A stretch of DNA of 64,000 nt, taken from a virus. Location of the stretch: the IMG/VR virus record IMGVR_UViG_3300007609_000008, positions 1-64,000 of that record; one strand, written 5' to 3'. A program made the position numbers and the translations under genes. Numbering within the stretch: the first letter of the stretch is position 1; each line of letters begins with the position of its first letter. The notes under the pieces are model-generated. The model ran no database searches. It was given only the letters and a program-made list of their open reading frames with translations, and was not told where the DNA came from. Below are positions 25,665 to 62,661 of this stretch, piece by piece.

Positions 25665-25667
25665 AAA

Positions 25668-27976: not shown

Positions 27977-27982
27977 CGAAGC

Positions 27983-28690: not shown

Positions 28691-28719
28691 ATGTTATTAA
28701 TTACCCATACAGAGGCATT

Positions 28720-29593: not shown

Positions 29594-29598
29594 TAACC

Positions 29599-30333: not shown

Positions 30334-30344
30334 GCAGACAAAAA

Positions 30345-42416: not shown

Positions 42417-43660
42417 TGAGGCATATTAGGAGATGTAGTGACTCTACCTTTCTTTACATCTCTTTCTTTTATACCAGGTATGTCAGCAAGATTCTCTTCC
42501 CACTCAGCTCCTGCTTCGTCACCGATCTTGCCTTGGAACGGACATGGAGTACCTGCCATCTTCATCGCAGTCCATACACGCTCGTCTTGACACATCAATG
42601 ATACAGCAGCGACACGCATACCCATATCGTACAGAGTCTTGCTCAGTTTGATTCGCTCACAGTTAGTGTCAGTAATAGATTTACCACCTGAGATACCGAA
42701 TATCTGAGTTTGAACTGCACCACTTACACCTGTTGTACACAAGTCTTGTGAAAACGAGCTACCAATACTAGGAGCGATTGCAGAAGGAGGAGGAGACTCA
42801 ATCTTTTGATTGATAGTCTGATTCTGTTTGCTCTCACTGACACTTCTGTTTTCGTTTACATTGTTATTAGTATTTGTATTTGTAGACTCACTCACACTCT
42901 CAGATATATTGGTGTTTGTGTTTTCACTTACACTATTGTTGTTATTAGTGTTAGTGTTCACTGAAGTGCTGCTACTTTCCATTGTACTAATATTGGTGTT
43001 TGTGTTGTCACTAGTAGACGTATTCACATTAGTATTATTATTTGTAGCATTAATAGTAGTGTCGTTCACATTAGTATTATTATTAGTATTATTAGTAGTA
43101 CTAATGCTTTCACTGTAATTATTATTTGTATTATTACTAGTTGTATTATTAGTATTTAAATTGGTATTGGTGTTATTACTAGTCGTTGTGTTTACATTGT
43201 TGTTGTTATTTGTAGAAGTACTAGTGCTAACATTATTATTGTTGTTAGTGTTCGTATTGTTTGTCCCACCGGACAGAACATTATTGTTAGTGTTCACATT
43301 AGTGCTTGTACTAGTACTAACATTTGTGTTATTATTAGTATTAGTATTATTAGTACCACCAGACAATATATTATTGTTAGTGTTGGTGTTTGTACTAGTA
43401 TTCACATTAGTGTTGTTATTCGTATTCGTACTAACATTTGTGTTATTATTATTGTTAGTATTTGTAGAAGTGCTTGTGTTTGTGTTCACATTATTGTTAT
43501 TGTTGGTTGCAGTCGAAGTCACAGTAGACGCCGAGTTTGTGGTCCCGTTCGTTTCTACATAGGTAGACGAATCGAAAAGACCGTCAGCATCGTTTTCGAC
43601 TTGTGCATTTGCAATATAGGGAATCATCAGAAGCATAATAAAGGATCCAATTCTTTTCAT
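42413..43660 (-). CDS. secreted Asn/Thr-repeat protein
   Basis: 415 residues on the minus strand from the ATG at 43660, which follows AAAGGA and opens with a signal peptide (MKRIGSFIMLLMIPYIANAQ). Residues from about 30 to 280 are almost only Asn, Thr, Ser and Val (NTNTNNNTNVSTSTSTN). The last ~120 residues are a normal folded domain with five Cys (including FSQDLCTTG, LMCQDER and GTPCPFQG). A long flexible adhesin or fibre is a fair guess. It is co-transcribed with the other secreted gene. Confidence 0.6.
   Translation of the reverse strand: MKRIGSFIMLLMIPYIANAQVENDADGLFDSSTYVETNGTTNSASTVTSTATNNNNNVNTNTSTSTNTNNNNNTNVSTNTNNNTNVNTSTNTNTNNNILSGGTNNTNTNNNTNVSTSTSTNVNTNNNVLSGGTNNTNTNNNNNVSTSTSTNNNNNVNTTTSNNTNTNLNTNNTTSNNTNNNYSESISTTNNTNNNTNVNDTTINATNNNTNVNTSTSDNTNTNISTMESSSTSVNTNTNNNNSVSENTNTNISESVSESTNTNTNNNVNENRSVSESKQNQTINQKIESPPPSAIAPSIGSSFSQDLCTTGVSGAVQTQIFGISGGKSITDTNCERIKLSKTLYDMGMRVAAVSLMCQDERVWTAMKMAGTPCPFQGKIGDEAGAEWEENLADIPGIKERDVKKGRVTTSPNMPQ
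42830..43530. repeat. low-complexity AAY/ACN coding repeat
   Basis: About 700 bases of near-repetitive trinucleotides (GTT/ATT/AGT on the plus strand) encoding the Asn/Thr tract. It includes a GGTACCACCAGACA-like segment seen twice (about 43,262 and 43,351), so units have probably expanded by slippage or recombination. Confidence 0.7.
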
Positions 43661-43692
43661 TGTCGGTCCTTTAAAGGGGGGATATGTCATGT

Positions 43693-43790: not shown

Positions 43791-44099
43791 ATGTATATGA
43801 ATCTTGGCAACTCTTTAAACTATACCACTTCTGGTCGTAAGCGGGCCAAGCTGCCAACCAAGAAGGCTGTCAAGCGTAAGTTCGAACCTTATGTGCCTTC
43901 TAAGACATATATAAGAGAGACACCTGATTATCCTAGTGTCACTACATCGCCTGCTGCTGACTCATGCAGCAAGCCTACGAGAACAGAATACACAGGCACG
44001 CTTGTTAAGGGCATCGCTACTATGCATAAGTCTAATGCAGTGCCTATCATCAACGACCAAGAAGCAAAAGATATTTCAAACATGAGGCGTGGTTCGTGA
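43791..44099 (+). CDS. small basic conserved phage protein
   Basis: 102 residues starting MYMNLGNSLNYTTSGRKRAK, a sequence I recall from T4-like marine phages, with a basic first half. No function is known. Its TGA overlaps the GTG of the next gene (GTGA), tying it to the radical SAM cluster, though it is probably an older core-phage gene. Confidence 0.6.
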   Translation: MYMNLGNSLNYTTSGRKRAKLPTKKAVKRKFEPYVPSKTYIRETPDYPSVTTSPAADSCSKPTRTEYTGTLVKGIATMHKSNAVPIINDQEAKDISNMRRGS

Positions 44100-44704
44100 A
44101 AATAGACTTTGATCTAGTATCTAGATGGATGTATGAGATACGAGAAAATTCTAGAATGTTAGATTGCTTCTGGCCGAGTCAGTTGCAAAGCAAGAAGTGG
44201 ATAATTGACACCCTAGTCAAAGAAGCATATTGGCGTGGTAGCATGGGTGACATTGTTATCTTTGGCGGCTGGTATGGCGTTCTTGCACAGATGCTACATC
44301 AAGAATTTGGCGGTAAATATATCAGTGTCGATAATGACCCTTCTTGCAAGGAAGTCTTTGATAGAATCAATACTAGCAACAAAATAGTGTTTAAAGATGG
44401 CTGTATGTCCGAATACGACTACAGTGATTCAATATTTTTAGACATGGTGATAAACACTAGTAGCGAACATGTATCTCAAGAAGTGTATTCTCAATGGTGG
44501 AACAACATTCCTAAAGGTACTAAATATGTAGTACAGGGCAATAATTTTTTTGAGACAGATGAACATGTGAGATGTACTGACACTCTTGAAGAATTTATCA
44601 CTATTAATTATCTAGAAAGCGCAAAGATTAAAGAATCTTTGAATTGCGGCATGAGACCAGATGGTTCTCCTTTCTATCGTTTTATGGCAATAGGCGTTAA
44701 ATAA
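44096..44704 (+). CDS. methyltransferase-like protein
   Basis: 202 residues from a GTG overlapping the previous stop. IVIFGGWYGVLAQML resembles the SAM loop and KYISVDNDPSC the acidic second strand of class I methyltransferases; INTSSEHVSQE could be the catalytic region. The glycine loop is not canonical, so a non-methylating Rossmann protein is possible. It heads the radical SAM cluster and shares one base with the first enzyme. Confidence 0.55.
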   Translation: MKIDFDLVSRWMYEIRENSRMLDCFWPSQLQSKKWIIDTLVKEAYWRGSMGDIVIFGGWYGVLAQMLHQEFGGKYISVDNDPSCKEVFDRINTSNKIVFKDGCMSEYDYSDSIFLDMVINTSSEHVSQEVYSQWWNNIPKGTKYVVQGNNFFETDEHVRCTDTLEEFITINYLESAKIKESLNCGMRPDGSPFYRFMAIGVK

Positions 44705-46161
44705 TGAAACTTAAGCACGGTGGTGAATCTAACTCTAATAACATAAGAGTTCTTGAAGACAAGCGAGACTATATTAATAATATTAGTCCTTCTTTTTGTT
44801 CTGCTAAGTGGTTGCAGACTACACTTTATTTACAGAATGGATACAATCATTCTTGTCACCACCCTTCACCTCACAAAATTCCTTTAGAAGAAGTACAGGC
44901 TAATCCTGCTGCCTTGCACAACAGTGCATTTAAAAAAGAACAGAGAGCTAAAATGCTCAAAGGCGAGAGACCAGCCGAGTGTGATTACTGTTGGAATATT
45001 GAAGATTTGGGAAAAGGTTACTTCTCAGATAGACACTACAAAACTTCTGATTATTGGGCATGGCATAGAGTAGATGAACCCGCTGAATCTGATCCGTATG
45101 ATGATATCTTTCCTTCTTACTTAGAGATTTCATTTTCTAACGCTTGTAACTTCGCATGTGCATATTGTACACCCGAAGCAAGCTCTAAATGGATGAAAGA
45201 CATAAAATCACATGGTGCATATCCTGTTGAGTTTGGTAGCCATTCTCTAGATAGTCTTAGAGATTTACAAAAAATTCCTTATAAAACTGATGAACATAAT
45301 CCTTATGTAGAAGCATTTAACAAGTGGTTTCCAGATGCTCTTCCTCATCTCAAGGTTTTCCGCATAACTGGCGGCGAACCTACAATGAGCAAAGACTTTT
45401 GGAAATCATTAGATTATATTTTACAAAATCCGAGAGATGATTTAGAAATTTCCATTAATACAAATCTTGGTGTACCAAAAGAACTAATTGACAGGTTGAT
45501 TGAGTATGCTAAAAGACTTGATACCGCATGTAAAGAGTGTGTTATATTTACAAGTTGCGAGGCATACGGTGAACAAGCAGAATATGTCAGAGACGGTTTA
45601 GACTATGATTATTGGTATGGCAATGTAAAAAGAATTCTAGAAGAGACTGAATGCAAAGTAGTTACTATGACTACTATAAATGCGTTGAGTCTTCCTTCTT
45701 TTACTCGCTGGTTAAAAGACATGATGGATCTCAGAATCGAATATAATCAGTTAGGTTTTATGAACAGAACTCCTATTAGTTTTAACTACTTGAGATTTCC
45801 TCCCCATCTGCAAGTATCAATACTTCCTGATTATATACGAGACAAATATGCTTCCGATATTGAAGAATATGTTTTGTCATGGGGAGAACTCGTTACTCCT
45901 TTGCCGAATGCAAAGTTTTACTTGGAAGAGATTGATCAGGTAAAAAGATTTTGTGACTACATGAGACAGGATACGACATCTGGTCCAAAATACAGAGAAA
46001 ACTTTATGCAGTTTATACAACATTATGATCTTCGCAGAGACAAAGATTTTATTTCTACTTTCCCTGAATATGAAGATTTTTATGAAGAATGGGCAATCGA
46101 GTATGCCCCTAAACTTAAAGCAGATTATATGGATTTGATAGAAGTTATTGAAGTAAAATGA
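44704..46161 (+). CDS. radical SAM enzyme A, N-terminal twitch-like domain
   Basis: 485 residues. The first ~110 residues carry FCSAKW, SCHHPSPHKIPL, LHN and ECDYCWNIED, a cysteine/histidine domain I read as the N-terminal twitch of the phage rSAM family. The radical SAM ligands are Cys148, Cys152 and Cys155 (CNFACAYC), and ITGGEP gives the SAM-binding GGE motif. The tail has the shared DLRRDKDFISTFPE motif. Enzymes A, B and C form one close subgroup. Four-base overlap with B. Confidence 0.85.
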   Translation: MKLKHGGESNSNNIRVLEDKRDYINNISPSFCSAKWLQTTLYLQNGYNHSCHHPSPHKIPLEEVQANPAALHNSAFKKEQRAKMLKGERPAECDYCWNIEDLGKGYFSDRHYKTSDYWAWHRVDEPAESDPYDDIFPSYLEISFSNACNFACAYCTPEASSKWMKDIKSHGAYPVEFGSHSLDSLRDLQKIPYKTDEHNPYVEAFNKWFPDALPHLKVFRITGGEPTMSKDFWKSLDYILQNPRDDLEISINTNLGVPKELIDRLIEYAKRLDTACKECVIFTSCEAYGEQAEYVRDGLDYDYWYGNVKRILEETECKVVTMTTINALSLPSFTRWLKDMMDLRIEYNQLGFMNRTPISFNYLRFPPHLQVSILPDYIRDKYASDIEEYVLSWGELVTPLPNAKFYLEEIDQVKRFCDYMRQDTTSGPKYRENFMQFIQHYDLRRDKDFISTFPEYEDFYEEWAIEYAPKLKADYMDLIEVIEVK

Positions 46162-47588
46162 GCAAAGATTTAATAGACTATCGTAAGAGAGTTCTTGACT
46201 CAAAGTCTCCTTCTTTCTGTGGCGCAAAGTGGTACAATGCTACAACTTGGTTAGGCAGCGGCACTACTGCTTCTTGCCATCACCCAACTGCACATAAAAT
46301 TCCTCTCGTTGAATTGCGAGACGATTACACTGCCATACACAACACAAAACACAAGAAAGCCACTCGCAAGATGATGCAAGAGGGTGAACGTCCTCTTGAG
46401 TGTGAATATTGTTGGCGCATGGAAGACATGGGCAAAGATGCTGTCTCAGACCGTGTTTTTAAATCTCAGATATACAGTGAAGAAGATTTGCAGTCGGCAT
46501 ACGACAAGTCTTGGGAAGATAGTGTAGACTTAAAAACTTTTGAGATTGCATTTGACAGAACTTGTAACCTTGCCTGTTCGTATTGTAACCCTTCGTTCTC
46601 TACTACATGGGCTAGAGACATTAAGAAGTATGGTCCTTATCAAAACTTGTTGTCAGATGGAGCAGGTGCATTTGAGCAAGACGGTTCTTGGACTGAGCCA
46701 TACGGTAGAGACGAAGAGAATCCATACATCGAAGCATTCTGGAAGTGGTGGGACAATGGTCTGTCTGAAAGTCTAGAAGAGCTACGAGTTACTGGTGGTG
46801 AACCTCTTATGTCAGGCAATACTTGGAAACTGTTCGATTGGTTTGAAGAGCAAGATAGCGATATGCGCTTTTCAATTAATAGTAATCTAATTGCCAAAGA
46901 CGAGATTATTGATAAACTAATTGAAAAATCTCATCGTGTTAAAAACTTTGAGCTTTACACTAGCGCAGAGTGTTTTGGTGTACATCAAGAATATTTGAGA
47001 GATGGCTTTGATTGGGAAGTCTGGCACAACAACATGCTAAGATTTGCGAAAGAAGGCAACTACAATAGTCTTAACATTATGATGACTATTACCGGATTGT
47101 CTTTGTTCAGCACTGCCGAGTTTTTAGACGAAGTTTACGAAATGAAGAAACACAGCAAATCAGGACATCATCCTGTTGTAAGTGTGAACATACTTCGCTT
47201 TCCTAGTTTTCAGAACATTCTTACATTACCAAAAGAGATTCGTGAGCATTGTAGACAAGAACTTGCTTTGTGGTTTGAAGAAAATAGAAACAAACCACAG
47301 TGGCTAGAATTCGAACTTGCAAGCATTGAAAGATTGATTGAATATCTTGCAACAGACGAAACACCACACCGTAAAGCGAGTAATCGTGATACTTTATGGC
47401 AGGACATGAAAGCCTTCTACACACAGTATGATCAGAGACGCAACAAAGATATTAATGTGTTTCCAGAAATATTTACTAAATGGTATGACACTATAAATAG
47501 TGGTTACAAGAAAGCTGAACTACACTCAGGTGACAACACTATATTTTTAGACGATGACAGATTAATAGAATTAACGGATATATTATGA
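46158..47588 (+). CDS. radical SAM enzyme B, N-terminal twitch-like domain
   Basis: 476 residues. FCGAKW, SCHHPTAHKIPL and ECEYCWRMED parallel enzyme A almost word for word. Cluster ligands are Cys136, Cys140 and Cys143 (CNLACSYC), with VTGGEP after them. The tail reads DQRRNKDINVFPE. It likely arose by duplication with A and C. A TATAAATA octamer near its 3' end (47492) could be chance. The next gene overlaps by four bases. Confidence 0.85.
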   Translation: MSKDLIDYRKRVLDSKSPSFCGAKWYNATTWLGSGTTASCHHPTAHKIPLVELRDDYTAIHNTKHKKATRKMMQEGERPLECEYCWRMEDMGKDAVSDRVFKSQIYSEEDLQSAYDKSWEDSVDLKTFEIAFDRTCNLACSYCNPSFSTTWARDIKKYGPYQNLLSDGAGAFEQDGSWTEPYGRDEENPYIEAFWKWWDNGLSESLEELRVTGGEPLMSGNTWKLFDWFEEQDSDMRFSINSNLIAKDEIIDKLIEKSHRVKNFELYTSAECFGVHQEYLRDGFDWEVWHNNMLRFAKEGNYNSLNIMMTITGLSLFSTAEFLDEVYEMKKHSKSGHHPVVSVNILRFPSFQNILTLPKEIREHCRQELALWFEENRNKPQWLEFELASIERLIEYLATDETPHRKASNRDTLWQDMKAFYTQYDQRRNKDINVFPEIFTKWYDTINSGYKKAELHSGDNTIFLDDDRLIELTDIL

Positions 47589-48628
47589 GCAAACATGTAA
47601 TATTAACACTACAAAATCCTCTAGATGAGAGCGACACGTTAGACATAAAATTTAATGTCATGGATACAGATATTGGCAATGATTGGTTTGATTTCGCTTC
47701 TTCTGCTCTTAAAAACAATCCTAGATTAGAAAAAAACTTTTGCTGGTTAGGTTGGCCAGATCCCAATCGTACTGTTGATTACTTAGCAAATCGTTTAGAA
47801 GAGTGTGTTGACGGTATAAATGATTTTGCAGATAACAATGTCGAACTCTGGGAAGGGTATCGTATTGATAAAAACTGGGACGATATTACTAGCGAAGATG
47901 CTTTGAACCAGTTACATCATCATTTTGAGATTCTTATGGGACAAGTGTGGGATGTCGCTAAGTACATGATACGTTCAGATGATGCTACTTCTTACAATAT
48001 CAGACAGCTTAATAATCTAGTACACGAACTTGCAGCAAGAAAAGTAGCAACTACTAACAAAGGTATGACTATTGGAAGTTATTTGAATCCGGTTAGAGAA
48101 CTATTCAAAGAAGATTACTACGACAATTTCTCTCTGAATAGAGATTTTGGAGATGTGTTTCTGCATTACGCTCAGACTGGTAAAACTCCAATAGAAGCAT
48201 TTGAAGACAACGATGATTATGTTTTCAATAACAATATTAATGCTTTGAGATATATGTCCGGCGAATTTAATATTTGGTGGTGTAATTCAATTTCAGAAAG
48301 CGAAAATGCAAAAAGAAAAGAAGAACTGAAAAAATGGCTACAAGATAGAGATGTAATATTTCAAGAACATGATGATTTTTGTTACTATGTTGATCCAGAT
48401 GAAAACAAGCAAGGCATAGGTTGGTTAGTTGTTGCTAAATTGGAAAATCAGTTTGATAGCAATTCTAAACTTGCTGAAGAAATTGCAAAAAGATTAAACA
48501 TATATAGTATGTCGTGTTTTGAAAATGAAGAGTTAGTAAGTTCCTATGTTTGGGATTATAAATGGACTGATTCTGATTATATTGAAAACGAAATTAACTT
48601 TTTAAGTCCACTTTTCCCGAGAGCATAA
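47585..48628 (+). CDS. radical SAM cluster partner protein 1
   Basis: 347 residues, no enzyme motif recognised. Landmarks are LNQLHHHFEILMGQVW, LNNLVHELA, FGDVFLHYAQTGKTPIEAF and GIGWLVVAKLE. The protein at 58323-59165 has the same order (LQKLFDTHEYFEVLG, MNTLIHKME, YIGYGETGKNLHHCF, GKWAIGEIE), so they look like distant paralogues. One lies between enzymes B and C and one after enzyme H, which suggests a substrate, carrier or scaffold for the enzymes. Confidence 0.55.
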   Translation: MSKHVILTLQNPLDESDTLDIKFNVMDTDIGNDWFDFASSALKNNPRLEKNFCWLGWPDPNRTVDYLANRLEECVDGINDFADNNVELWEGYRIDKNWDDITSEDALNQLHHHFEILMGQVWDVAKYMIRSDDATSYNIRQLNNLVHELAARKVATTNKGMTIGSYLNPVRELFKEDYYDNFSLNRDFGDVFLHYAQTGKTPIEAFEDNDDYVFNNNINALRYMSGEFNIWWCNSISESENAKRKEELKKWLQDRDVIFQEHDDFCYYVDPDENKQGIGWLVVAKLENQFDSNSKLAEEIAKRLNIYSMSCFENEELVSSYVWDYKWTDSDYIENEINFLSPLFPRA

Positions 48629-50025
48629 TGACAGTACACAGTTACAATTTATTAGACTTAAAAGATGTCACTGAAGAATTGAATACAGTTGGTAAAGGCT
48701 TCTGTCTTGCCAAGTGGTATCATGTCAGTATGCATCTTCATACCGGACAGAATCATAGCTGCTATCATCCAGCTCCTCACAAGATTCCTCTAGACTTAGC
48801 GAAAGAAGACGCCAATGTTCTTCACAATAGTCCTTTCAAGAAAAAAGTACGCAAAGAAATGCTTGAAGGTGGAAGACCGGCAGAGTGTAGTTACTGCTGG
48901 AATGTTGAAGACCTGGGAGACGATCAAATATCAGATAGAATGCTTCGTTCATCTGAGCCTTGGGCATTGCCATTAATTCAAGAGACTAAAGATATTGATT
49001 GGCAAGCAGATGTTTATCCTCGCTATCTAGAACTAAACTTTAGTAATCGCTGTCAACTGAAATGTAGTTACTGTGCTCCTATGGCAAGCTCTAGTTGGTT
49101 AAAAGAAACTGAGAAGTGGGGCAACTGGCCCTTAGAAAATCGTATCAATGTTAGACAATACGATAATGACACCTTCAAAAACGAAGGCTCCATTTACGGC
49201 GAAGAAGACACAAACCCATACATCAAAATCTTTTGGGAGTGGTTCCCTGATGCATATCCACACTTACACACACTAAGATTTACTGGAGGTGAGCCTTTAC
49301 TTAGTCCTAACGTATTTAAGGTTCTCGACTATGTTGGCGCCAATCCTAAACCAGACTTAGAGTTTGCTGTAAACAGTAACATGATGATTCCAGAAAGAAA
49401 CATTATTCGTTTTATTCAGACAGCAAATGATTTGACTGTGAACAATAAAATTAAAGGATACTCGCTGTTTACTAGTGTTGATACTTGGGGCAAACAAGCA
49501 GAATGGATTCGTAACGGACTCGAAATAAAAAAATATGAAAGTAATCTTCACTACTACATGGAACATTCTGAATCAAAGTATTTCAGTTTTATGGTGACTT
49601 TCTGTTTGCTTGCTATTCCTAACTTTACTGAGTTTTTAGACAAGGTGTTAGAGTTTAGAGAAAAATATAATGTAGATGACAGTTATCAGCGTGTTAATTT
49701 TGATACCCCGTATACTATTGAACCGCCTCATCTGACTGCTCGTATTGCTGATGATTGGATGATCGAACGATTAGAATATACTTGTAATTACTTAGAAGAA
49801 AGAGTAGACGATAGTGATATCAAAATGTTCTCATCTGTTGAACATAAGAAACTGTTACGTGTTCTTGAATGGGTAAAACAAAACAGATATGAGGGCGAAG
49901 AGCTTGCTATGAATAGAAGAGATTTCGCTAAGTTTGTAGACGAGCATGACAGAAGAAGAGGCACAGATTTCCATGCTGCCTTTCCTGAACTAAGAAATTT
50001 TTACGATATGTGTAAGGAGTCATAA
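48628..50025 (+). CDS. radical SAM enzyme C, N-terminal twitch-like domain
   Basis: 465 residues. FCLAKW, SCYHPAPHKIPL and ECSYCWNVED mark the same N-terminal domain as A and B. Ligands are Cys142, Cys146 and Cys149 (CQLKCSYC), with FTGGEP following. The tail is DRRRGTDFHAAFPE. The first ligand is followed by Gln, where most others have Asn. Overlaps the partner gene before it and the SDR gene after it by one base each. Confidence 0.85.
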   Translation: MTVHSYNLLDLKDVTEELNTVGKGFCLAKWYHVSMHLHTGQNHSCYHPAPHKIPLDLAKEDANVLHNSPFKKKVRKEMLEGGRPAECSYCWNVEDLGDDQISDRMLRSSEPWALPLIQETKDIDWQADVYPRYLELNFSNRCQLKCSYCAPMASSSWLKETEKWGNWPLENRINVRQYDNDTFKNEGSIYGEEDTNPYIKIFWEWFPDAYPHLHTLRFTGGEPLLSPNVFKVLDYVGANPKPDLEFAVNSNMMIPERNIIRFIQTANDLTVNNKIKGYSLFTSVDTWGKQAEWIRNGLEIKKYESNLHYYMEHSESKYFSFMVTFCLLAIPNFTEFLDKVLEFREKYNVDDSYQRVNFDTPYTIEPPHLTARIADDWMIERLEYTCNYLEERVDDSDIKMFSSVEHKKLLRVLEWVKQNRYEGEELAMNRRDFAKFVDEHDRRRGTDFHAAFPELRNFYDMCKES

Positions 50026-50687
50026 TGAATATAGTTATTGTAGGACCTGGAAATGATCCAAAAAGATTTGGAACACACTTTGTCAATCTTTGTGAAAGTA
50101 AAGGACATTCTGTCACTAAGTTTTCATATAGACTAGAAAATGAATCATTTGAAGATGTAGTAGAAAGATATAAAACAGAAATTTCACATCTAGACAGGGT
50201 AGATCTTTTTTTATATAACTCTATTGGTGGATTTTATCCAGGTCAAGCCTTTCACTATCACACCGGTCATGAAGTAGAATACAAGAGATGGCAAGAAGGT
50301 ATTATGATAAATGGTGCAATGCCTCATGCATTATCTCTTAAGACTCTTGAAAAAATGGATGAGCAATCTTCAATAGTTTTCATGACATCTTCTGGCTCAT
50401 ATCTAGTCAATAGAGACAACTACTTAGAGCTTGCTGGCTACTTTGGAACAAAAGGTGCATTAAATCATCTATCAAGAGCACTCGCTGAATGTAATGATGC
50501 TGGTGCTAAAGTTTGTATCATGGCTCCTCATATTCCGTACGATGATGGTGATGATGAAATAACAGAAAGAATAATGAATATACTCACAGAAAAAATGTTA
50601 AATATTTTACCTGAAGACAACGGCAAAGTATTACAATGCTTCCCTCCAGAAGGTAGGCTACATTATTATCCGCATGGTAAACACTAA
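50025..50687 (+). CDS. SDR-like NAD(P)-binding protein
   Basis: 220 residues. The nucleotide loop is IVGPGNDPKRFG, divergent from the TGxxxGIG of the 27425 gene. Ser in TSSGSYL and YFGTK (Tyr-x3-Lys) give the SDR catalytic residues, with LSRALAE after. A sugar or keto reductase acting with the radical SAM enzymes is likely. Sits between enzymes C and D. Confidence 0.6.
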   Translation: MNIVIVGPGNDPKRFGTHFVNLCESKGHSVTKFSYRLENESFEDVVERYKTEISHLDRVDLFLYNSIGGFYPGQAFHYHTGHEVEYKRWQEGIMINGAMPHALSLKTLEKMDEQSSIVFMTSSGSYLVNRDNYLELAGYFGTKGALNHLSRALAECNDAGAKVCIMAPHIPYDDGDDEITERIMNILTEKMLNILPEDNGKVLQCFPPEGRLHYYPHGKH

Positions 50688-51949
50688 TGATAAGTAAAGA
50701 CAGCAAGTCGTTTTGTATTTTGCCCTTTGTGCATTCTCATCTAAACACAGAAGGAGATGTTTTCCCTTGTTGTATAAGCTGGGACGCTCAAAGGTCTACT
50801 CAAATAGGTTATTTGAAAGACAATACATTAGAAGAGCTTTTCAATAGTGATAAGATGAAACAGCTTCGTCTCGACCTTGCAGCAGGTAAGAGAAGACCTG
50901 ATTTTTGTGATGCATGTTACAAACGAGAAGACAACGGTTTTGTTAGTGCAAGGCACGGAAACAATTTAGATTATCTTGATGTTGAAGATGATATTGTTGC
51001 TAGTATGCACGAAGACGGATATCTAGAACCAATCATTAAAAGTTGGGACATAAGATTTAGCAATCTGTGCAATCTAAAATGTAGAACATGTGGTAGCGTA
51101 TATAGTACCACTTGGGCACAAGAAGATGCTAAATTTAATGGGTTTTCAGAGTATAAACAGATAAACTCAATACCAGAAGGGGATCCCGATCCTCTAGATA
51201 ATCAATACGATAATGTTGATAAAATTTACTTTGCAGGTGGCGAACCTCTTATCATGCCTGAGCATTTTCGTGTTCTACAGAAAATAATTGATAGTGGCAG
51301 AGCACATAAAGTAAAATTATTGTATAACACAAACATGACAAAATTAAATTATAATAAGCACGATCTTATTGAATACTGGAAAGAATTTAAAGTGGTCGTT
51401 CTTGGTGCCAGCATTGATGCAATGGGTGACAGAGCGGATTACATAAGAAATGGAGTTAAGTGGTCTAATATTGAGAAAAATTTAAAAACGCTTTCTGAAG
51501 CTATTAAAAAGTATCCTAATATTAACATTCACATGGCACCTACAGTAAGTATTCTTAATGTACATTCTCTTGCGGATACTCACAGGTATTTTGTAGAGAA
51601 TGAATACATACCTAGTACTTCTTCAATTGTGTTGAACATGCTTCTAGGCCCCACTTGGTTTGAAATACGCAACTTGCCAAATGTACTAAAAGAAGAAGTA
51701 AAAGAAAAATTAAGAGATCACATATCGTGGTTAATTGAAAAAGATACTCGTCAAGATGTTGTTGAAAGTTTTGAAAGCATTTTAACTTATATTGATAATG
51801 ATGCTTCGGAAACAGACGTAATGAAATTTGTGCAAGAGACGAGACGAGTAGATGCAAGAAGAGATCAAAATTTTCCTGATACTTTTCCTGAGTATGCTGA
51901 ATGGTGGGATTCTTTAGATAAATCTTTAATAAGCGTATCAAATATATGA
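50687..51949 (+). CDS. radical SAM enzyme D, N-terminal twitch-like domain
   Basis: 420 residues. The N-terminus FCILPFVHSHLNTEGDVFPCC belongs to the second type seen in D to H, close to the SPASM/twitch CxxPW...CC pattern, and DFCDACYKRED gives further Cys. Ligands are Cys128, Cys132 and Cys135 (CNLKCRTC), with FAGGEP. The tail DARRDQNFPDTFPE keeps the shared end motif. Four-base overlap with E. Confidence 0.86.
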   Translation: MISKDSKSFCILPFVHSHLNTEGDVFPCCISWDAQRSTQIGYLKDNTLEELFNSDKMKQLRLDLAAGKRRPDFCDACYKREDNGFVSARHGNNLDYLDVEDDIVASMHEDGYLEPIIKSWDIRFSNLCNLKCRTCGSVYSTTWAQEDAKFNGFSEYKQINSIPEGDPDPLDNQYDNVDKIYFAGGEPLIMPEHFRVLQKIIDSGRAHKVKLLYNTNMTKLNYNKHDLIEYWKEFKVVVLGASIDAMGDRADYIRNGVKWSNIEKNLKTLSEAIKKYPNINIHMAPTVSILNVHSLADTHRYFVENEYIPSTSSIVLNMLLGPTWFEIRNLPNVLKEEVKEKLRDHISWLIEKDTRQDVVESFESILTYIDNDASETDVMKFVQETRRVDARRDQNFPDTFPEYAEWWDSLDKSLISVSNI

Positions 51950-53244
51950 GTAATAAAATAGAAGAACCTTCAAAAACTTTTTGTGTCATGCCTTGGATAC
52001 ATTTACACGCTTGGCCAGAAGGAAAGGCTATGTTGTGCTGTAAAGCTCATGGCGGTGAAAACGGAGGAGACGTAGGCGACTTTTCTGTAAATACATATGA
52101 AGAAATAATGAACAGCGACAAGATGAAGCAAATTCGTCTTGATATGCTTGAAGGGAAGACGGTAGAGCAATGTATTGCCTGCACTAATGATGAAAAACTA
52201 GATAAGAAAAGTTTTAGACACGACATGAATAATTCTTATCGTGATTTGATTCCCTCGCTTTTGACAGATGACAAAACTTTATCTGACGGCACACTTACTG
52301 ATCCTAAGATGTATTATATGGATTTCAGATTTAGTAACTTGTGTAATTTAGGATGTCAAACATGTGGAAGTCCTCTAAGTAGTACAATTGCAAATAATCG
52401 CCCAAACAACGATAGCGAAAATGCATTCTTAAAGAAAAAAAATGTTTTGTCTGAAAGAGGCACAATTACTTCTTTTGTTTATGCTCGTCCAGATTTTTTT
52501 GAAGTCGATGTTTTGCCGCATATTGATACAGTAACTAATTTTTACTTTGCTGGTGGTGAACCCTTGATGCATCAAGAGCATCTTGATATTTTAAGATATA
52601 TGGATGACAATAAACTTTACGACAAGCATATAACTTACAGTACAAACTTATCTCTATTGAAATGGAAAGGAACAGATTTTCTTGATATATGGAAAAACTT
52701 TGACAACATTTTATTTTTTTGTAGTATTGACGGTGATAATGAAAGATTAGAATATATTAGAGAATTTTCAAAACATAAAGTAATATTTAATAATTTGAAA
52801 AAACTAATACAATTAAAAAAAGAAAATCCTCTTAAAAGATTTAAAATTTGCATTTGTTATACTCATAGCATTTATAATTGTTATTACACTAAAGAGTTTT
52901 TTGCTGCATTAATAAATGAAGGTGTGATAGAAGATTTAGATCATTTAGAATTTAATTATTCTTATGGCGAAAGAAATCATCCTGCGATTTTGCCAAATTT
53001 TGCAAAAAAAGAACTTATAGAGAAGAGACACGAAGATAGATCATCAGAAGAACTTCAAAAGGCTTTTTCTTTATTTCCTGATTTGAGACATTATTTTGAT
53101 AGCATCGATAATATCTTACATGAAACTATGCCTGCAAATGAGTTTGACAAATTGATCAGCCACGATCTTTTACCAAAAATAGATAAAATAAAAATTGCAC
53201 TTCCTTGGTTACACAGTGTAATTGATAGACACAGGGTATTATAA
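51946..53244 (+). CDS. radical SAM enzyme E, N-terminal twitch-like domain
   Basis: 432 residues. FCVMPWIHLHAWPEGKAMLCC and EQCIACTND make the N-terminal domain. Ligands are Cys133, Cys137 and Cys140 (CNLGCQTC), with FAGGEP. The tail shortens to FSLFPDLRHYF and the extra C-terminal ~50 residues have no counterpart in the others. A+T content is higher than in A to C. Overlaps D by four bases and F by one. Confidence 0.86.
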   Translation: MSNKIEEPSKTFCVMPWIHLHAWPEGKAMLCCKAHGGENGGDVGDFSVNTYEEIMNSDKMKQIRLDMLEGKTVEQCIACTNDEKLDKKSFRHDMNNSYRDLIPSLLTDDKTLSDGTLTDPKMYYMDFRFSNLCNLGCQTCGSPLSSTIANNRPNNDSENAFLKKKNVLSERGTITSFVYARPDFFEVDVLPHIDTVTNFYFAGGEPLMHQEHLDILRYMDDNKLYDKHITYSTNLSLLKWKGTDFLDIWKNFDNILFFCSIDGDNERLEYIREFSKHKVIFNNLKKLIQLKKENPLKRFKICICYTHSIYNCYYTKEFFAALINEGVIEDLDHLEFNYSYGERNHPAILPNFAKKELIEKRHEDRSSEELQKAFSLFPDLRHYFDSIDNILHETMPANEFDKLISHDLLPKIDKIKIALPWLHSVIDRHRVL

Positions 53245-54458
53245 TGACCAGATGCGTCAACACAGATAAATCATTAAGATATACAAACAGTGGAGATGTA
53301 GCTCTTTGCTGTAAGAGTGAGTTATGGTTAAATGACGAGAACGGCAATAAGTGTAATATATCAACACATGATTTTAATGCGCCGCTCAATGGAAAACTAG
53401 CAACTGAAATTCGTAATGACCTGAACAACGGGGTCCGTCATGCAAATTGCAAAAAGTGTTGGGACGAAGAAGATGCAGGAATAGCAAGCAAAAGAATTCT
53501 TGACAACTCCAGAGCAGTAGATTACTGGGGCAAAGATTTTTTGACTGATGGCAAAATTGAGCCAGCCATTGTTGAATTGAACTTAGGAACACTGTGCAAT
53601 CTTAAGTGTAGGATCTGTGGTCCATGGTCAAGCAGTAACTGGGTAAATGAGCACTATGCTGTAAACACTTCGCCCGAAAAGCAAACAAGAGAAAACAAAA
53701 AAAAGTATATGCAGCAGGTGAAGCAATGGCAAGGCAATTTTGAAGATGACAGTCCTACTTGGAAAAACATAGAAGACAGTTTGCCTCATTTGAAACAAAT
53801 TGATATATATGGTGGCGAGCCATTCATGGTAGAAAAGCAATGGGAAGTATTGCAAAAAAGCATAGACAGGGGGTATAGTAAAGACCAGACCCTACACTTT
53901 AACACAAATACTACCATATACTCTGAGAAGCATGTTAAAATTTTGAAACAATTCAAAACAGTTCTTATTAGTCTTTCGTTAGATGACATAGAAGATAGAT
54001 TTGAGTTTCAGCGTCATCCAGCTAAATGGGATCTGGTATCCGAAAATATACAAAAATTTTTACAGTTAAATGCAGATAATGAAAATATAACTGTTGTTGC
54101 TTGTGTAACTATCAATAACTTGAATGTATATTACTTACCTGAAATACTAGAATATTATGATAGTATTGGTTTAGGGTATTATACTAATATTTTACACGGG
54201 CCACCACATTATAATATTAAAAACATTCCGCAAAATTTAAAAGAAGTTATTACTAATAAATATAAAGAAGACATGAAGACTTCTAATGAATATAAGACGG
54301 AAAGACTGCGACAGGTAATGGAATTTATGAATTCATTTATTACTACAAATAATGAATGGACAAATTTTATAGAGTATACTAAAAAGAAAGACGAATACAG
54401 AAAAGAAAACTTCAATGAGGTTTTTCCTGAGTGGAGCGATGTAATTGAAAATAACTAA
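53244..54458 (+). CDS. radical SAM enzyme F, N-terminal twitch-like domain
   Basis: 404 residues. The N-terminus begins directly with RCVNTDKSLRYTNSGDVALCC, so it lacks the PW pair and the few residues before the first Cys; NCKKCWDEED follows. Ligands are Cys118, Cys122 and Cys125 (CNLKCRIC), with IYGGEP. The tail is KENFNEVFPEW. The oxygenase-like gene after it starts 14 bases before its stop. Confidence 0.85.
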   Translation: MTRCVNTDKSLRYTNSGDVALCCKSELWLNDENGNKCNISTHDFNAPLNGKLATEIRNDLNNGVRHANCKKCWDEEDAGIASKRILDNSRAVDYWGKDFLTDGKIEPAIVELNLGTLCNLKCRICGPWSSSNWVNEHYAVNTSPEKQTRENKKKYMQQVKQWQGNFEDDSPTWKNIEDSLPHLKQIDIYGGEPFMVEKQWEVLQKSIDRGYSKDQTLHFNTNTTIYSEKHVKILKQFKTVLISLSLDDIEDRFEFQRHPAKWDLVSENIQKFLQLNADNENITVVACVTINNLNVYYLPEILEYYDSIGLGYYTNILHGPPHYNIKNIPQNLKEVITNKYKEDMKTSNEYKTERLRQVMEFMNSFITTNNEWTNFIEYTKKKDEYRKENFNEVFPEWSDVIENN

Positions 54459-55053
54459 GCCGTTAGAGGGCGTAAGATATCAAAATACTACAGAAGAAAT
54501 GCCTATTTGGTTTTTTGAAGGAGTAGAACTTCCAGAAATTGATTTTGATTCTTTGAACTGGAAAAATTCACATGGCAGACAGTTATACGAGGACGATAGA
54601 TACAAAAAAAGAGAAGTTGCTGAATGGACTAGTAATAATAAAAATCCGGCAGCGATTGCAATTTTTAATGCAATAGAAAGTGTCGTGACAGAGATAGAAA
54701 AAAATTATCCAGCAGAAAACTTAGAATTGATTTGGCCAATTGATACATGGAAAAGATCCTCCTATGTAGATATCAAAAATGATCATGATGGATTTTGGAT
54801 GGGCGAGCATCTAGATAATAGAAATGTCAAGTGGACATGTATAATGAATTTAGAAGATAATGAAGATTCTACTAGATTTCACTTAGATTATTTTAACGAA
54901 GATGCGGTTGAAGGAAGAGAAAAAGAATTCTACGCACCTACGAAGAAAGGTAGCGGAGTTTTCTATTTCAATCATCATGCTTTATTACATAGCATAGGCC
55001 CGACTTCTGGTAAAGATAGATACATAGCATTTCAGATGAATTTGGTGAAATAA
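54445..55053 (+). CDS. 2OG-Fe(II) oxygenase-like protein
   Basis: 202 residues from a TTG at 54445 with GGAG placed upstream. His122 and Asp124 (GEHLDNR) and His182 (LLHSIGP) form the HxD...H site, and KDRYIAFQ holds a candidate 2-oxoglutarate Arg. It parallels the 25089 protein in motif order and length, a direct link between the two loci. Position between enzymes F and G implies a shared pathway. Substrate unknown. Confidence 0.6.
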   Translation: MKITKPLEGVRYQNTTEEMPIWFFEGVELPEIDFDSLNWKNSHGRQLYEDDRYKKREVAEWTSNNKNPAAIAIFNAIESVVTEIEKNYPAENLELIWPIDTWKRSSYVDIKNDHDGFWMGEHLDNRNVKWTCIMNLEDNEDSTRFHLDYFNEDAVEGREKEFYAPTKKGSGVFYFNHHALLHSIGPTSGKDRYIAFQMNLVK

Positions 55054-56279
55054 TGAGCAAGGATACAATCTGCACTCTTCCATGGAATGGCATTCACTTA
55101 AATGCTAATATAGGAGTTTGTTGCAACTCTCTTAGAGCACTCAATTCTAATAACGGAGAACTCAGTACGGCTGAAGACTTGTTGTCCCTAGAAGAAAACA
55201 ATGATTTAATTCAGCTAAAAAAAGATTTGCTCGCAGGCGTAAAAAATCCTATTTGTGATCGATGCTGGAATATGGAACCAAGTAGTTTCAGAAAAACATT
55301 TAACCAGTCTTATCCAGAAACTTATCAGAAAATATTAACAGAATCACCTGAAAGTCTTCCTCTAGAACATATTTTCATTTCAATAGGAAATACTTGCAAT
55401 CTAAATTGTAGAATGTGTGGTCCACATAGCAGCTCTATGATAACAAAAGAGTGGTCTGATCCTGAACGTCCTCATCCAGTTAGACCAAGCAATATAGGAA
55501 AATCTATTATTGCAACAGATTATGATAATACACGCTCTAGTCACTTGAGTAATCCTAATTTTATAGAATATGTAAAAAATAATTACAAAGAGCTAAAAAC
55601 AATTTATATCTATGGTGGAGAGCCATTTATTATAATTGAAGAACATCTAAATTTTTTACAACTTTTAGTTGATTTAGGCGTATCTAAAAATATAAAGTTA
55701 CAATATTCTACTAACGGAACTAACACAACGTTGAGAAGATTTATTGATCTTTGGAAAAATTTTAAAGAAATATCAATCTCTGTCAGTTGCGATGGTATGG
55801 AAGAAGTGTATGATTTTATTAGATGGCCTAGTACTTGGTCAAAGATGAAGAAGAGCTTAGATTATTATTATGATTTTAGTAACAAAAATGATAATATAGC
55901 ATTACATGTTGCTTGCACTCTGCAAATCGCAACTTTAGAGCAAATAAAAAAATTTGAAAATTTTCTAAAAACAACTTATCCAAAATTATCTGGAAGCTAT
56001 TATATACCGGTAGATTATCCTGAAGAGTTTTCTTTAAAATGTGTTCCACTGCCAGTGTTGAAGGAGTATAATAATGATCCAAACTTGTCAGAAAGAGTAC
56101 AATCTATAATAAAACAAACAATTGATTCGTATAATCATGAAGAAAGTTTTAAGTACTTTGACAATTTTTTAAAAACCGCAGAGTGGCAAGACAAATACAG
56201 AAATCAGAATGTATACGATTACTTGCCTCAGATAAAAAAATGGAAAAAGATTCATGAAGACGATCAAGTATCAAAATAA
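55053..56279 (+). CDS. radical SAM enzyme G, N-terminal twitch-like domain
   Basis: 408 residues. ICTLPWNGIHLNANIGVCC and PICDRCWNMEP form the N-terminal domain. Ligands are Cys115, Cys119 and Cys122 (CNLNCRMC), with IYGGEP, and PHSSSM after the cluster matches the SS pair found in most members. The tail ends NVYDYLPQIKKW, a faded form of the shared motif. The SGNH gene starts 26 bases before its stop. Confidence 0.85.
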   Translation: MSKDTICTLPWNGIHLNANIGVCCNSLRALNSNNGELSTAEDLLSLEENNDLIQLKKDLLAGVKNPICDRCWNMEPSSFRKTFNQSYPETYQKILTESPESLPLEHIFISIGNTCNLNCRMCGPHSSSMITKEWSDPERPHPVRPSNIGKSIIATDYDNTRSSHLSNPNFIEYVKNNYKELKTIYIYGGEPFIIIEEHLNFLQLLVDLGVSKNIKLQYSTNGTNTTLRRFIDLWKNFKEISISVSCDGMEEVYDFIRWPSTWSKMKKSLDYYYDFSNKNDNIALHVACTLQIATLEQIKKFENFLKTTYPKLSGSYYIPVDYPEEFSLKCVPLPVLKEYNNDPNLSERVQSIIKQTIDSYNHEESFKYFDNFLKTAEWQDKYRNQNVYDYLPQIKKWKKIHEDDQVSK

Positions 56280-57120
56280 TGTAATCAGTTTTGATAAAAT
56301 TATTGGATTTGGTTGTAGCTATACTGCAGGAACTGAATTAGTAGATCATAGTGTTCTTAATATTAGTGCAGAAAAAAGCGATGAGTTAAAAAGAAAAATG
56401 CCTATAGCAGACTACTATGGTGAAATTTCATCCAAGTTTGCAATTGGAGGGCTGTCTTCAGTTTTCGATCTACAAAAAAAATATGCATACATTGCACATC
56501 TTGCAAAAAAGTTTGAAGTGCCTTGGGAAAATTATGCATATGGCGGAAGTAGTTTAGAATATGTTTGCTGGCTTCTAACAAAAAAGATTTATAACAAAGA
56601 AATTAGAGACACCGATTTAATTGTAATAGGAGTAACTTGTCCCAATAGGGCGTTCTATGTGAAGAACAAAGAAGAAGTTATGCACTTACAACTGTCTAGA
56701 AATGTAAGATGGCCAAATGATGAATTTTTTGAAGATTATCTGATGACTTTTGGCAACGAAGATACTACAATATGGAAATATTTTCATCAATTGCAGTATC
56801 TTTCTTCTTTAAATGAAAAGCTAAATAATCGTATTGTACTGTTGCCTATGTCATTTCCTTGTCATGAATGGGTTAAAATATTATTTAATAGAAGGGATCA
56901 AGATAGAAAAAAGGAAGAACAATATTATATCGATGAATTAAAATCTATTAGGGGTATGATGACTGACGATTTAGAGCCTCTAATGTTAGGCGCATTTGAA
57001 AACCAGACGGTGGGTAGAACAATTGCACCGGAGGATTTACATGGTTATGGTCACTGTAATATGAAAATTCATGAGCAGTATGCAGAAAGATTGTATAAAA
57101 AACTTACAGGAGAATCATAA
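56254..57120 (+). CDS. SGNH-type hydrolase-like protein
   Basis: 288 residues. IGFGCSYTAGTE provides the Ser block, YGGSSLEYV the Gly block (the same GSSLEY as in the 29599 protein), and DLHGYGHCN near the end the catalytic Asp/His. Larger than the 25-30 kb copies, with an insert after the first block. Probably an esterase or acyltransferase for the cluster product. AGGAGA in its last codons serves the next small gene. Confidence 0.68.
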   Translation: MKTIKYQNNVISFDKIIGFGCSYTAGTELVDHSVLNISAEKSDELKRKMPIADYYGEISSKFAIGGLSSVFDLQKKYAYIAHLAKKFEVPWENYAYGGSSLEYVCWLLTKKIYNKEIRDTDLIVIGVTCPNRAFYVKNKEEVMHLQLSRNVRWPNDEFFEDYLMTFGNEDTTIWKYFHQLQYLSSLNEKLNNRIVLLPMSFPCHEWVKILFNRRDQDRKKEEQYYIDELKSIRGMMTDDLEPLMLGAFENQTVGRTIAPEDLHGYGHCNMKIHEQYAERLYKKLTGES

Positions 57121-57224
57121 TGATCAAAAAAATAAAAGATTGGTATAAAGACTGGAAAAAGAAAAAAGAAATTAAAAAGAAACTTAAAAAATTAAGAGAA
57201 GAAGACCCTTTTATATATGACTAA
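57120..57224 (+). CDS. 34-residue lysine-rich peptide, precursor candidate
   Basis: The ATG overlaps the preceding stop and has a strong AGGAGA at 57108-57113. The peptide opens MIKKIKDWYKDWKKKKEIKK and ends EEDPFIYD; 15 of 34 residues are Lys. It is amphipathic with aromatic residues in a regular pattern and a distinct acidic-aromatic end. It is the only peptide-sized gene inside the radical SAM cluster and overlaps enzyme H by eight bases. Radical SAM substrate, membrane-active peptide and RNA-binding peptide all remain possible. Confidence 0.6.
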   Translation: MIKKIKDWYKDWKKKKEIKKKLKKLREEDPFIYD

Positions 57225-58326
57225 ATTAGCTGATACTTTTTGCATTGTTCCTTGGATAGGCGCAGTAGTTGCTCCCGATAAGGAAAATTTAATTTGCTGT
57301 AGAGCTAATGATAAGCCCACTGAGTATACCTTAGATTCTGTAAATACTGAAACACATAAACATCTGAGAGATGCTTTGGGAAATGGAGTAAAGGATCCTA
57401 TTTGTAAGAGATGTTGGTCTGATGAAAAATCAGGAATAGAAAGTTATAGACAAAGTTATAATAAACACTACAAAGACCTCATTGCATCCGACTCATATTC
57501 TCCCGCTAAACTTAGATTTTTAGAACTGACTCCAAGTAATGTATGTAATCTTGCATGTAGAATGTGTTCTTCTAGATATTCCTCTAAAATTGTTGCAAGG
57601 GAAAAGTATCTTTCTGAACTTAATTTATTTCATGAAAGAGAAAAAGCTCACTTTACAGATTGGAGAAACTTAGATTTATCACACTTAGAAGAGCTGAAAC
57701 TAATGGGCGGTGAGCCTATGTATCTAAAAGAGCATCTTGAAATATTAGAGCACCTAGACACAATTGGTGTACTTGAAAATTTAAATTTGATGGTGATTAC
57801 AAATTGCACTCATTCGATAAATGAAAAATGGAAATATTTTTTAACAAAAGCCAGACGAGTTCATATTGCTATAAGCATTGACGCAGTTGGTAAATTAAAT
57901 GAATATATTAGACAATATTCAAATTGGAATGAAGTTGAAAAAAATCTGCATGAGATAAACGAATTTTCTTTGTCTTTAAAAGATGTTTGGCTCAGTGTAA
58001 ACTGTACAGTTGGAATTTATAATGTAAACAAAACAAAAGAATTTGAAGATTATATGAAAAAACGAAATATTCATTATTATTTTAATCCTTTAGTGTATCC
58101 TAATTATCAAAGTTTGCATTACTTATCTGAGGATCATAAAAATTATCTTTTGAATCATGAGAATGTATCAAAAAAATTACATCATGTTTTGCAAGAAAAA
58201 GAAACACATGTTGTTAGTGCAGAAAAATTCATGGAAGAGACAACCGCAGTCGATAAATTTTATAATAAATATCTAAAGGATTACAACGAGGAGATATATA
58301 ATTTATTATATATGAAAAGATTATGA
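57217..58326 (+). CDS. radical SAM enzyme H, N-terminal twitch-like domain
   Basis: 369 residues, the shortest of the set. FCIVPWIGAVVAPDKENLICC and PICKRCWSDEK form the N-terminal domain. Ligands are Cys110, Cys114 and Cys117 (CNLACRMC), with LMGGEP. The shared FPE end motif is lost. It follows the lysine-rich peptide and precedes the second partner protein, so these three may form a functional unit. Confidence 0.85.
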   Translation: MTKLADTFCIVPWIGAVVAPDKENLICCRANDKPTEYTLDSVNTETHKHLRDALGNGVKDPICKRCWSDEKSGIESYRQSYNKHYKDLIASDSYSPAKLRFLELTPSNVCNLACRMCSSRYSSKIVAREKYLSELNLFHEREKAHFTDWRNLDLSHLEELKLMGGEPMYLKEHLEILEHLDTIGVLENLNLMVITNCTHSINEKWKYFLTKARRVHIAISIDAVGKLNEYIRQYSNWNEVEKNLHEINEFSLSLKDVWLSVNCTVGIYNVNKTKEFEDYMKKRNIHYYFNPLVYPNYQSLHYLSEDHKNYLLNHENVSKKLHHVLQEKETHVVSAEKFMEETTAVDKFYNKYLKDYNEEIYNLLYMKRL

Positions 58327-59165
58327 GAATAACATTTCATAGAGATGACAAAGAAGTAGGGTACATTAATTTTTTGACGTATGATAATTTAGCGTTTAAA
58401 TACTTCAAAGAAAATATTCTGCAAACGACAATGAAAACAAAAACTACTGGTGTTAGTTTTGAAAAATCTAAGCTAGAAATAATAAACAATTATATTGAAT
58501 ATAAAGATGTTATAGAAAAAATAAATCAATATGATTACAGCGAGAAGATAGAAACTGATGTCTCCAAAGACATGAGTTTACAAAAGTTGTTTGACACTCA
58601 TGAATATTTTGAAGTTCTAGGTGAAGTTAGAAGAAAAGGACTTTTACCAGACACACAAGAAATGGACGATATGTTCAACTTAGCGTGTAGGATGAATACT
58701 TTGATTCATAAAATGGAAGGCTCTGCTACTTTAGAAGGCTCTCAATGGTTTCAAGCCCTTTTTGATAAGCCAACTATATACAGAACAGATTTAGATGATG
58801 CTCTATTAGCAGAAGCAGTCGAAGATTTTGAAGAACATAAAATTTATATAGGATACGGCGAAACAGGGAAAAATTTGCATCATTGTTTCCAATTCAATGA
58901 AACTGATTTAGTGCATAGAAAAATGGTACAACCTCAACGCTCAATTTTAACTGAAATATTTCTTGTGTTGAATGGAGAGATGCCTCTAAGATGGGAAAAA
59001 TTTGAGGAGTGGTGTATAGAAAATGATGTAGAATCGTATGGGTATGATTATAAAAATCCAAAATATTATGGCAAGTGGGCAATAGGTGAAATAGAATCAA
59101 AATCTTTTGAGACTCTGACAGCTTTTCCAGTTTATGATGAGGTTAGAATAACTTTTAATGATTAA
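58323..59165 (+). CDS. radical SAM cluster partner protein 2
   Basis: 280 residues. LQKLFDTHEYFEVLG, MNTLIHKMEG, YIGYGETGKNLHHCFQF and GKWAIGEIES follow the order seen in the protein at 47585-48628, which is longer. No catalytic site is obvious; His and Glu recur in the helical centre. Overlaps enzyme H by four bases and the carbamoyltransferase by eight. A shared substrate or carrier role with partner 1 is proposed. Confidence 0.55.
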   Translation: MRITFHRDDKEVGYINFLTYDNLAFKYFKENILQTTMKTKTTGVSFEKSKLEIINNYIEYKDVIEKINQYDYSEKIETDVSKDMSLQKLFDTHEYFEVLGEVRRKGLLPDTQEMDDMFNLACRMNTLIHKMEGSATLEGSQWFQALFDKPTIYRTDLDDALLAEAVEDFEEHKIYIGYGETGKNLHHCFQFNETDLVHRKMVQPQRSILTEIFLVLNGEMPLRWEKFEEWCIENDVESYGYDYKNPKYYGKWAIGEIESKSFETLTAFPVYDEVRITFND

Positions 59166-62518: not shown

Positions 62519-62661
62519 TGATTATTTTAAGCAATGGCCAGTCACAACAATTCTTTTCTTGTTATGCAGAAATTATAGATTTCATTGGCAACAGTGAGTT
62601 CAATTCAGTGATGAGTGGTGATCATCCACAGTACACATTGTCGTATGTGTCAATAACTTAA
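62518..62661 (+). CDS. small protein of unknown function
   Basis: 47 residues (MIILSNGQSQQFFSCYAEII...). ATG overlaps the preceding stop and its own stop overlaps the next ATG, so translational coupling supports it. No family is recognised. Confidence 0.45.
   Translation: MIILSNGQSQQFFSCYAEIIDFIGNSEFNSVMSGDHPQYTLSYVSIT

Follow-up and report, generated by a model that had tools for sequence, protein, structure and literature searches.

Eight N-twitch radical SAM enzymes in one array of a T4-like phage: a conserved ancient core, exchangeable extras and a possible role in tailoring surface glycans

Why should a single phage carry eight different radical SAM (rSAM) enzymes in one run of genes? 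The question is raised by the virus record IMGVR_UViG_3300007609_000008, which is 125,421 bases long and the first 64 kb of which are referred to here as the window. By eye, the portal, sheath and major capsid protein suggest a T4-like myovirus, and the large terminase is ~48% identical to cyanophage gp17. Eight uninterrupted rSAM open reading frames (ORFs), denoted R1–R8, are located on the plus strand between positions 44704 and 58326. An earlier note on this DNA proposed that so many paralogues in one phage, together with a ninth enzyme at 17.7 kb, point towards a multi-step pathway and not a single modification.

The layout of the locus is compact, and all of the genes described here lie on the plus strand. 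Directly 5′ of R1 is MTa (44096–44704), a small protein that resembles a class I methyltransferase by eye (IVIFGGWYG...); no significant match to it was found in Pfam, PHROG or PDB, and its position is kept in related contigs. R1 (44704–46161) and R2 (46158–47588) are followed by U47 (47585–48628), a protein without an assigned family that has no significant match in Pfam or PHROG, and then by R3 (48628–50025). A short-chain dehydrogenase/reductase (SDR) gene (50025–50687; PF13561, 27.2 bits, at the cut-off), the place of which differs from relative to relative, precedes R4 (50687–51949), R5 (51946–53244) and R6 (53244–54458). The remainder of the array contains a fast-evolving 2-oxoglutarate/Fe(II) oxygenase-like protein (54445–55053; PF13640, 18 bits, below the cut-off), R7 (55053–56279), a protein with an SGNH/GDSL-like motif recognized by eye (GFGCSYTAGTE; 56254–57120; no Pfam, PHROG or PDB match) and R8 (57217–58326). 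Beyond these are U58 (58323–59165), an ORF without an assigned family or a significant Pfam or PHROG match, and a NodU/NolO-type carbamoyltransferase (59158–60582; PF16861, 183 bits; PF02543, 131 bits; phrog_1601, 348 bits). The co-directional arrangement with overlaps of 1–26 bases between neighbours, described in the earlier note, is borne out, and the sole real gap is 96 bases (57121–57216). The G + C content of the array is 0.347, lower than the 0.391 of the rest of the record.

Comparison with sequence profiles places all eight proteins among the N-twitch rSAM enzymes, as had been suggested. Each matches NF033640 (‘twitch domain-containing radical SAM protein’) over nearly its full length, with scores of 244–387 bits against a curated cut-off of 170 bits (R1–R8 in order: 340, 295, 297, 387, 278, 307, 245 and 248). 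The general Radical_SAM profile PF04055 is matched above its cut-off by R1, R2 and R4–R8, while R3 scores 29.1 bits against a cut-off of 29.5, or 30.4 once the pieces in the R3 frame are joined. The CxxxCxxC motifs begin at residues 148, 136, 142, 128, 133, 118, 115 and 110 of R1–R8, with a GGEP motif after each, exactly as first read; this combined C3C2C + GGEP motif is found in R1–R8 alone among the 158 ORFs of at least 100 amino acids in the 125-kb record. The cysteines noticed in front of the barrel are four conserved residues in every one of R1–R8 (one, one, then CxxC), which would bind a predicted auxiliary cluster. Across 161 relatives, the CxxxCxxC cysteines are kept in all and the four twitch cysteines in nearly all. 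Two types can be distinguished: type A (R1–R3) shares FCxAKW...SCHHP-like...CxYCW, and type B (R4–R8) has a SPASM-like N-terminus, with the twitch region of R4 also matching PF13186. The eight are too diverged (17–38% pairwise identity) for one scan alignment, and sub-alignments were used. The ninth enzyme (17698–18819) is indeed a SPASM rSAM protein (PF04055, 34 bits; C-terminal SPASM, PF13186, 22 bits); it lies outside the N-twitch family, scoring 46 bits against the 170-bit cut-off of NF033640 and having no GGEP motif. Elsewhere in the window, a gene for an A-type Fe-S carrier (29297–29575; PF01521, 52 bits) is in keeping with a demand for Fe-S supply, and recalls the environmental genome of PMC5332604.

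To our knowledge, no reaction has been assigned to any N-twitch rSAM enzyme. Among twitch rSAM enzymes of solved structure, BtrN and SpeY take part in the biosynthesis of aminocyclitol antibiotics. Positions 5–98 of a profile of R4-type proteins align to residues 164–258 of BtrN, its C-terminal twitch (E 7e-4), which suggests that the N-twitch is this domain, transferred to a position ahead of the barrel. This homology would bear on cluster binding, not on the substrate. A sequence search of the PDB found no relative informative about substrate, with weak matches to SkfB, viperin, BtrN, MoaA and similar proteins. Predicted models of R4 and R1 (pLDDT 84) gave partial fold matches alone (TM 0.25–0.37), the best of which are weak and point to a mixture of proteins (sactipeptide maturases, viperin, DesII and BlsE; TM 0.33–0.37). 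The link to aminocyclitol pathways suggests one possible product, a diffusible small molecule or cofactor, aminoglycoside- or nucleoside-like, directed against the host or competitors. The set of SDR, oxygenase and carbamoyltransferase is also compatible with such a product, and a Paenibacillus homologue lies, by eye, among acyl-carrier and ketosynthase genes. We nevertheless consider this distinctly unlikely: no export or resistance gene was recognized in the phage array, and in the Bdellovibrionota the company of these genes consists of polysaccharide-type exporters and GT4 enzymes.

How far the eight enzymes belong together can be judged from six related contigs. The order U47-R3-R4-R5-R6 is kept in all of them, R1 is present in each (in the sixth, L264, the gene labelled R1 groups with R3 in the tree) and R2 in four; the expected conservation of gene order is therefore seen for R1–R6, except that R2 is missing from two contigs. 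The carbamoyltransferase ends the array in 4/6. Against their relatives, the rSAM genes have pN/pS ratios of 0.06–0.55, with synonymous sites near saturation, values that indicate purifying selection on R1–R6 and show that the enzymes are maintained. Conservation is uneven along the array. R2 is 93% identical in contig L259 and 89% in L261; the corresponding values for the flanking core gene phoH are 95% and 76%. Between the window and L259, conservation is much lower for R1, R5, R6 and R7 than for R2 and R3 (65% and 51% for R1 and R5, against 93% for R2/R3), which points to piecewise replacement. R7 is found in two of the six close relatives and R8 in one (61% identity), the number of N-twitch copies varies from 1 to 19 per record in 41 phage records, and in syntenic relatives no SGNH/GDSL-like gene is found at the same place and U58 is not seen. 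The array thus combines an ancient, conserved core with optional members, and is not a series of eight fixed steps. What survives of the proposed multi-step pathway is that R1–R6 travel together, in a kept order and under purifying selection; a fixed eight-step set, and the consistent co-occurrence of all eight that was thought likely to support it, do not.

The core extends well beyond these contigs. R2, the most conserved and most widespread member of the array, was used to scan public viral contigs and matched 587 places, of which 574 were confirmed; by contrast, a search of 50,697 annotated phage records with R1, R2 and R7 found distant relatives in two Vibrio phages only, K566 and K567. 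A near-identity DNA search for the array in the phage collection gave no match. Seventy R2 loci were inspected, the best matches of the 587, which come from other uncultured phages and are partly redundant. Among these best-matching loci, R1 is found no more than two genes upstream of R2 in 68/70, and a gene of R4 type within three genes downstream in 59/70.

The ancestry of the enzymes reaches further still. A tree built from 125 sequences places bacterial as well as phage genes in each of the clades of R1, R2, R3, R4 and R6 (support 0.80, 1.0, 0.68, 0.83 and 0.997, respectively); chromosomal genes of Bdellovibrionota are among the members of all five, and the R6 clade includes a Bacteriovoracaceae gene. 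R5, R7 and R8, by contrast, have counterparts only in close relatives. It follows that the paralogues predate their present distribution, and this sequence comparison indicates that R1, R2, R3, R4 and R6 are ancient and distinct. Recent tandem duplication of the rSAM genes was ruled out by their 17–38% identity and by the clades common to bacteria. Since the paralogues are ancient and distinct, the view that the array performs more than a single modification is reasonable. Orthologues of R2 occur in about ten Bdellovibrionota genomes, at 44–54% identity. One of these genomes, a single contig of 2.66 Mb, has two copies of R2 (54% and 50%) next to genes of R1 and R4 type, which are therefore chromosomal genes and not binning artefacts; other ‘bacterial’ loci that have tail-like genes (L103–L106) probably represent phage contigs that were binned into MAGs. 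One Bacteriovoracaceae contig, L124, contains eight N-twitch genes, including R2, R3/R1, R4 and R6 types. These distributions bear on whether the array has any common pathway, or is a set of independently acquired cassettes, each with an unrelated substrate. The variable copy number, the differences among relatives in R7, R8, SDR, SGNH and U58, and the signs of piecewise replacement would all fit such cassettes. They fit poorly with the conserved order of R1–R6, the neighbouring R1 and R2 in nearly all of the best-matching loci and the joint presence of R1/R3, R2, R4 and R6 types in the Bacteriovoracaceae array, and we regard the absence of a common pathway as quite improbable.

The bacterial loci also provide clues to the substrate. 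In three of six bacterial R2 loci, an ABC-2 permease and ATPase adjoin, with a DegT aminotransferase, a carbamoyltransferase or a GT4 enzyme, and a nucleotidyltransferase is nearby in a fourth. In five of the ten R2-carrying genomes, the nearest carbamoyltransferase is 4.7, 9.2, 10.1, 10.9 or 12.8 kb from R2; with one or two carbamoyltransferases per genome, such proximity is expected by chance in a few per cent of cases per genome, a comparison that is weakened by the kinship of the genomes. An ABC-2 permease (1–4 per genome) lies within 5 kb of R2 in 3/10. Some of these loci are related by descent (G110 and G137 have the same gene order), and the counts of co-location are not independent. 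Carbamoyltransferase genes thus lie near bacterial R2 and at the end of the phage array, and are a partner common to both sets. The bacterial arrays L119 and L124 stand alone, with no glycan genes beside them. Overall, the set often lies among surface-sugar genes in predatory bacteria, and so it may well remodel a sugar coat of the cell surface.

In most of the related phages, genes for tail-fibre-like proteins and GT8 glycosyltransferases precede the array. Among the 70 best-matching R2 loci, a GT8-like gene lies within seven genes upstream of R2 in 46 (assigned to GT8 through a match to glycogenin structures, E 5e-7) and tail-gene clusters lie upstream in 43. A label of ‘MT’ for the gene before R1 in the tail-locus phages proved to be wrong; its single-linkage cluster, c1, mixes a DxD-bearing, glycosyltransferase-like family with MTa-type proteins, the glycosyltransferase-like reading found no HMM or PDB support, and counts based on c1 are not relied on. 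The tail genes raise the possibility that the enzymes are instead peptide or protein maturases, introducing cross-links, epimers or oxidized residues into a phage or host protein, such as a tail fibre or one of the N/T-rich repeat proteins encoded upstream. SPASM/twitch rSAM enzymes are mostly peptide modifiers (PMC11002830), the best Foldseek matches include CteB, SuiB and SkfB, and an N/T-rich repeat protein (42413–43690) adjoins the array both in the window and in L261. This N/T-rich sequence is, however, found in none of 24 further records that carry N-twitch genes, and the neighbouring gene at 40149 has a weak match in one other record only, so that the repeat protein was ruled out as a general substrate. 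Furthermore, with a largest gap of 96 bases the array has no room for a precursor peptide gene, and no common small gene is found beside the bacterial arrays. Peptide maturation therefore seems unlikely.

The best-supported class of substrate, judged from genomic company, is a surface glycan. We favour it because of the carbamoyltransferase, the company of GT8 and tail-fibre genes, and published host-recognition islands (PMC7029224), and prefer it to one linear pathway, to peptide maturation and to hypermodification of DNA. Our tentative proposal, which we hold at somewhat less than an even chance, is that these genes form a tailoring operon of modular design, the target of which is a surface glycan or glycoside. 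The core of R1, R2 and R4 (with R3, R5 and R6 in this lineage) would consist of ancient, non-redundant enzymes that make radical changes on saccharide units of one product, by abstraction of a hydrogen atom leading to dehydrogenation, epimerization, deoxygenation or cross-linking. The SDR, the 2-oxoglutarate oxygenase-like protein, the possible methyltransferase and the carbamoyltransferase would add ordinary decorations, and R7 and R8 would be exchangeable accessory steps. The likely purpose would be to alter the surface polysaccharide of the infected host (superinfection exclusion or serotype conversion) or, alternatively, a glycan on the virion. In favour of this proposal are eight intact enzymes, their conserved order and the twitch match to BtrN, an aminocyclitol dehydrogenase. 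Against it, the array itself contains no glycosyltransferase, the nearest being a TET-associated/HMC-type (TAGT-like) enzyme at 62661, recognized by Pfam and PHROG, with none at the same place in relatives; the glycan-cluster company is that of GT8 in related phages and of exporters, aminotransferase and GT4 in several Bdellovibrionota loci. Gene association is no demonstration of chemistry.

The same TAGT-like gene and the carbamoyltransferase could act on hydroxymethylpyrimidines, giving hypermodified, restriction-resistant DNA, and phage carbamoyltransferases are able to carbamoylate hydroxymethylcytosine (PMC8670742). A search for a hydroxymethylase of the thymidylate synthase (ThyA) family gave no match for the 125-kb record and for 10 of 18 others, these records being incomplete, and no TET/JBP was found in the 125-kb record, a possibly incomplete contig, in a search without a positive control. 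In addition, relatives of R1–R4 and R6 occur in bacterial chromosomes, where R2 is repeatedly beside polysaccharide genes, and modification of DNA bases appears very improbable.

Returning to surface glycans, a bolder proposal, which we regard as doubtful, is that a surface saccharide is built by an ancient rSAM assembly line of at least the R1/R3, R2, R4 and R6 types, which uncultured T4-like phages would have in common with predatory Bdellovibrionota. If true, this would be radical chemistry not described for any polysaccharide. The core of R1, R2 and R4 (with R3/R6), being present also in bacterial chromosomes, offers a concrete set of enzymes with which the chemistry could be sought and tested, and would explain what the large Fe-S investment buys these viruses.

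Several known systems share features with the array. NF033640 (N_Twi_rSAM, NCBIfam) is a sequence family without an assigned function; here, eight diverged members share an operon with genes for an SDR, an oxygenase-like protein and a carbamoyltransferase. The twitch of the dehydrogenases BtrN and SpeY is homologous to that of the array enzymes, but in BtrN it follows the barrel and in the array it precedes it, and whole-protein fold similarity between SpeY and an array enzyme is low (TM 0.25). The carbamoyltransferase of the MetaGPA study reportedly belongs to PF02543/PF16861, as does that of the array. MetaGPA describes a phage carbamoyltransferase system for 5-hydroxymethylcytosine (PMC8670742), from which the array differs in that no thymidylate-synthase-family hydroxymethylase or TET was found. 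Similar in genomic setting are an environmental T4-like genome that carries 12 rSAM genes (PMC5332604) and the host-recognition cluster of pelagimyophages, with GT8-rich LPS genes and rSAM ‘gene cassettes’ (PMC7029224). In the parts of these two papers that were consulted, multiple rSAM genes of T4-like marine phages are likewise placed in hypervariable islands together with tail-fibre and glycosyltransferase genes, and a role in changing the host surface is considered possible; those parts contain no account of N-twitch subfamilies, of a conserved order or of a match to Bdellovibrionota chromosomes. Marine phages with multiple rSAM genes and the N-twitch family are, therefore, already known, whereas no description of the ordered core, or of its occurrence in predatory bacteria as well, was met with in the literature searched, and both appear to be new.

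Judged by eye, a second cluster of genes within the window (25059-30803, + strand) encodes 2OG-oxygenase-like, SGNH-like and SDR proteins, kinds similar to those that accompany the radical SAM (rSAM) genes of the array. An A-type iron-sulfur carrier protein (29297-29575, + strand; PF01521, 52 bits) could act as a supplier to the Fe-S enzymes. Sulfotransferase-like proteins, also recognized by eye, are encoded at 12407-13024 and 1432-2109 (+ strand), with starts TPGRTGSN and SPIGRTGSK.

The phage also carries a TET-associated or HMC-type glycosyltransferase (62661-63509, + strand; PF20691, 40 bits; phrog_842, 66 bits), although neither TET nor a ThyA-type hydroxymethylase was found in the 125-kb record. 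Past the window end, this phage has a further gene array, made up of four related glycosyltransferase-like paralogues in tandem (G000:102767-105651, − strand; L079/L080).

One reported open frame of 1020 aa (G038:C1:21335-24172; L082) holds two N-twitch rSAM matches and is perhaps a tandem fusion. In a Bdellovibrionota genome, an rSAM/SPASM enzyme is fused to a DegT-type sugar aminotransferase (L288:16039-17973, − strand), close to an orthologue of R2, the most conserved array member. Four contigs (L103, L104, L105 and L106), catalogued under MAGs of Pelagibacter, Verrucomicrobia, Rickettsiales and Betaproteobacteria, have the same order of tail-like and N-twitch genes, and are probably phage contigs binned with bacteria.

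Adjoining the array are an N/T-rich repeat protein (42413-43690, − strand) and a large, secreted-looking protein (40149-42416, − strand). Both are conserved beside the array in the related contig L261 (83 and 74%), and curli-like genes have been reported in a comparable variable region of pelagimyophages.
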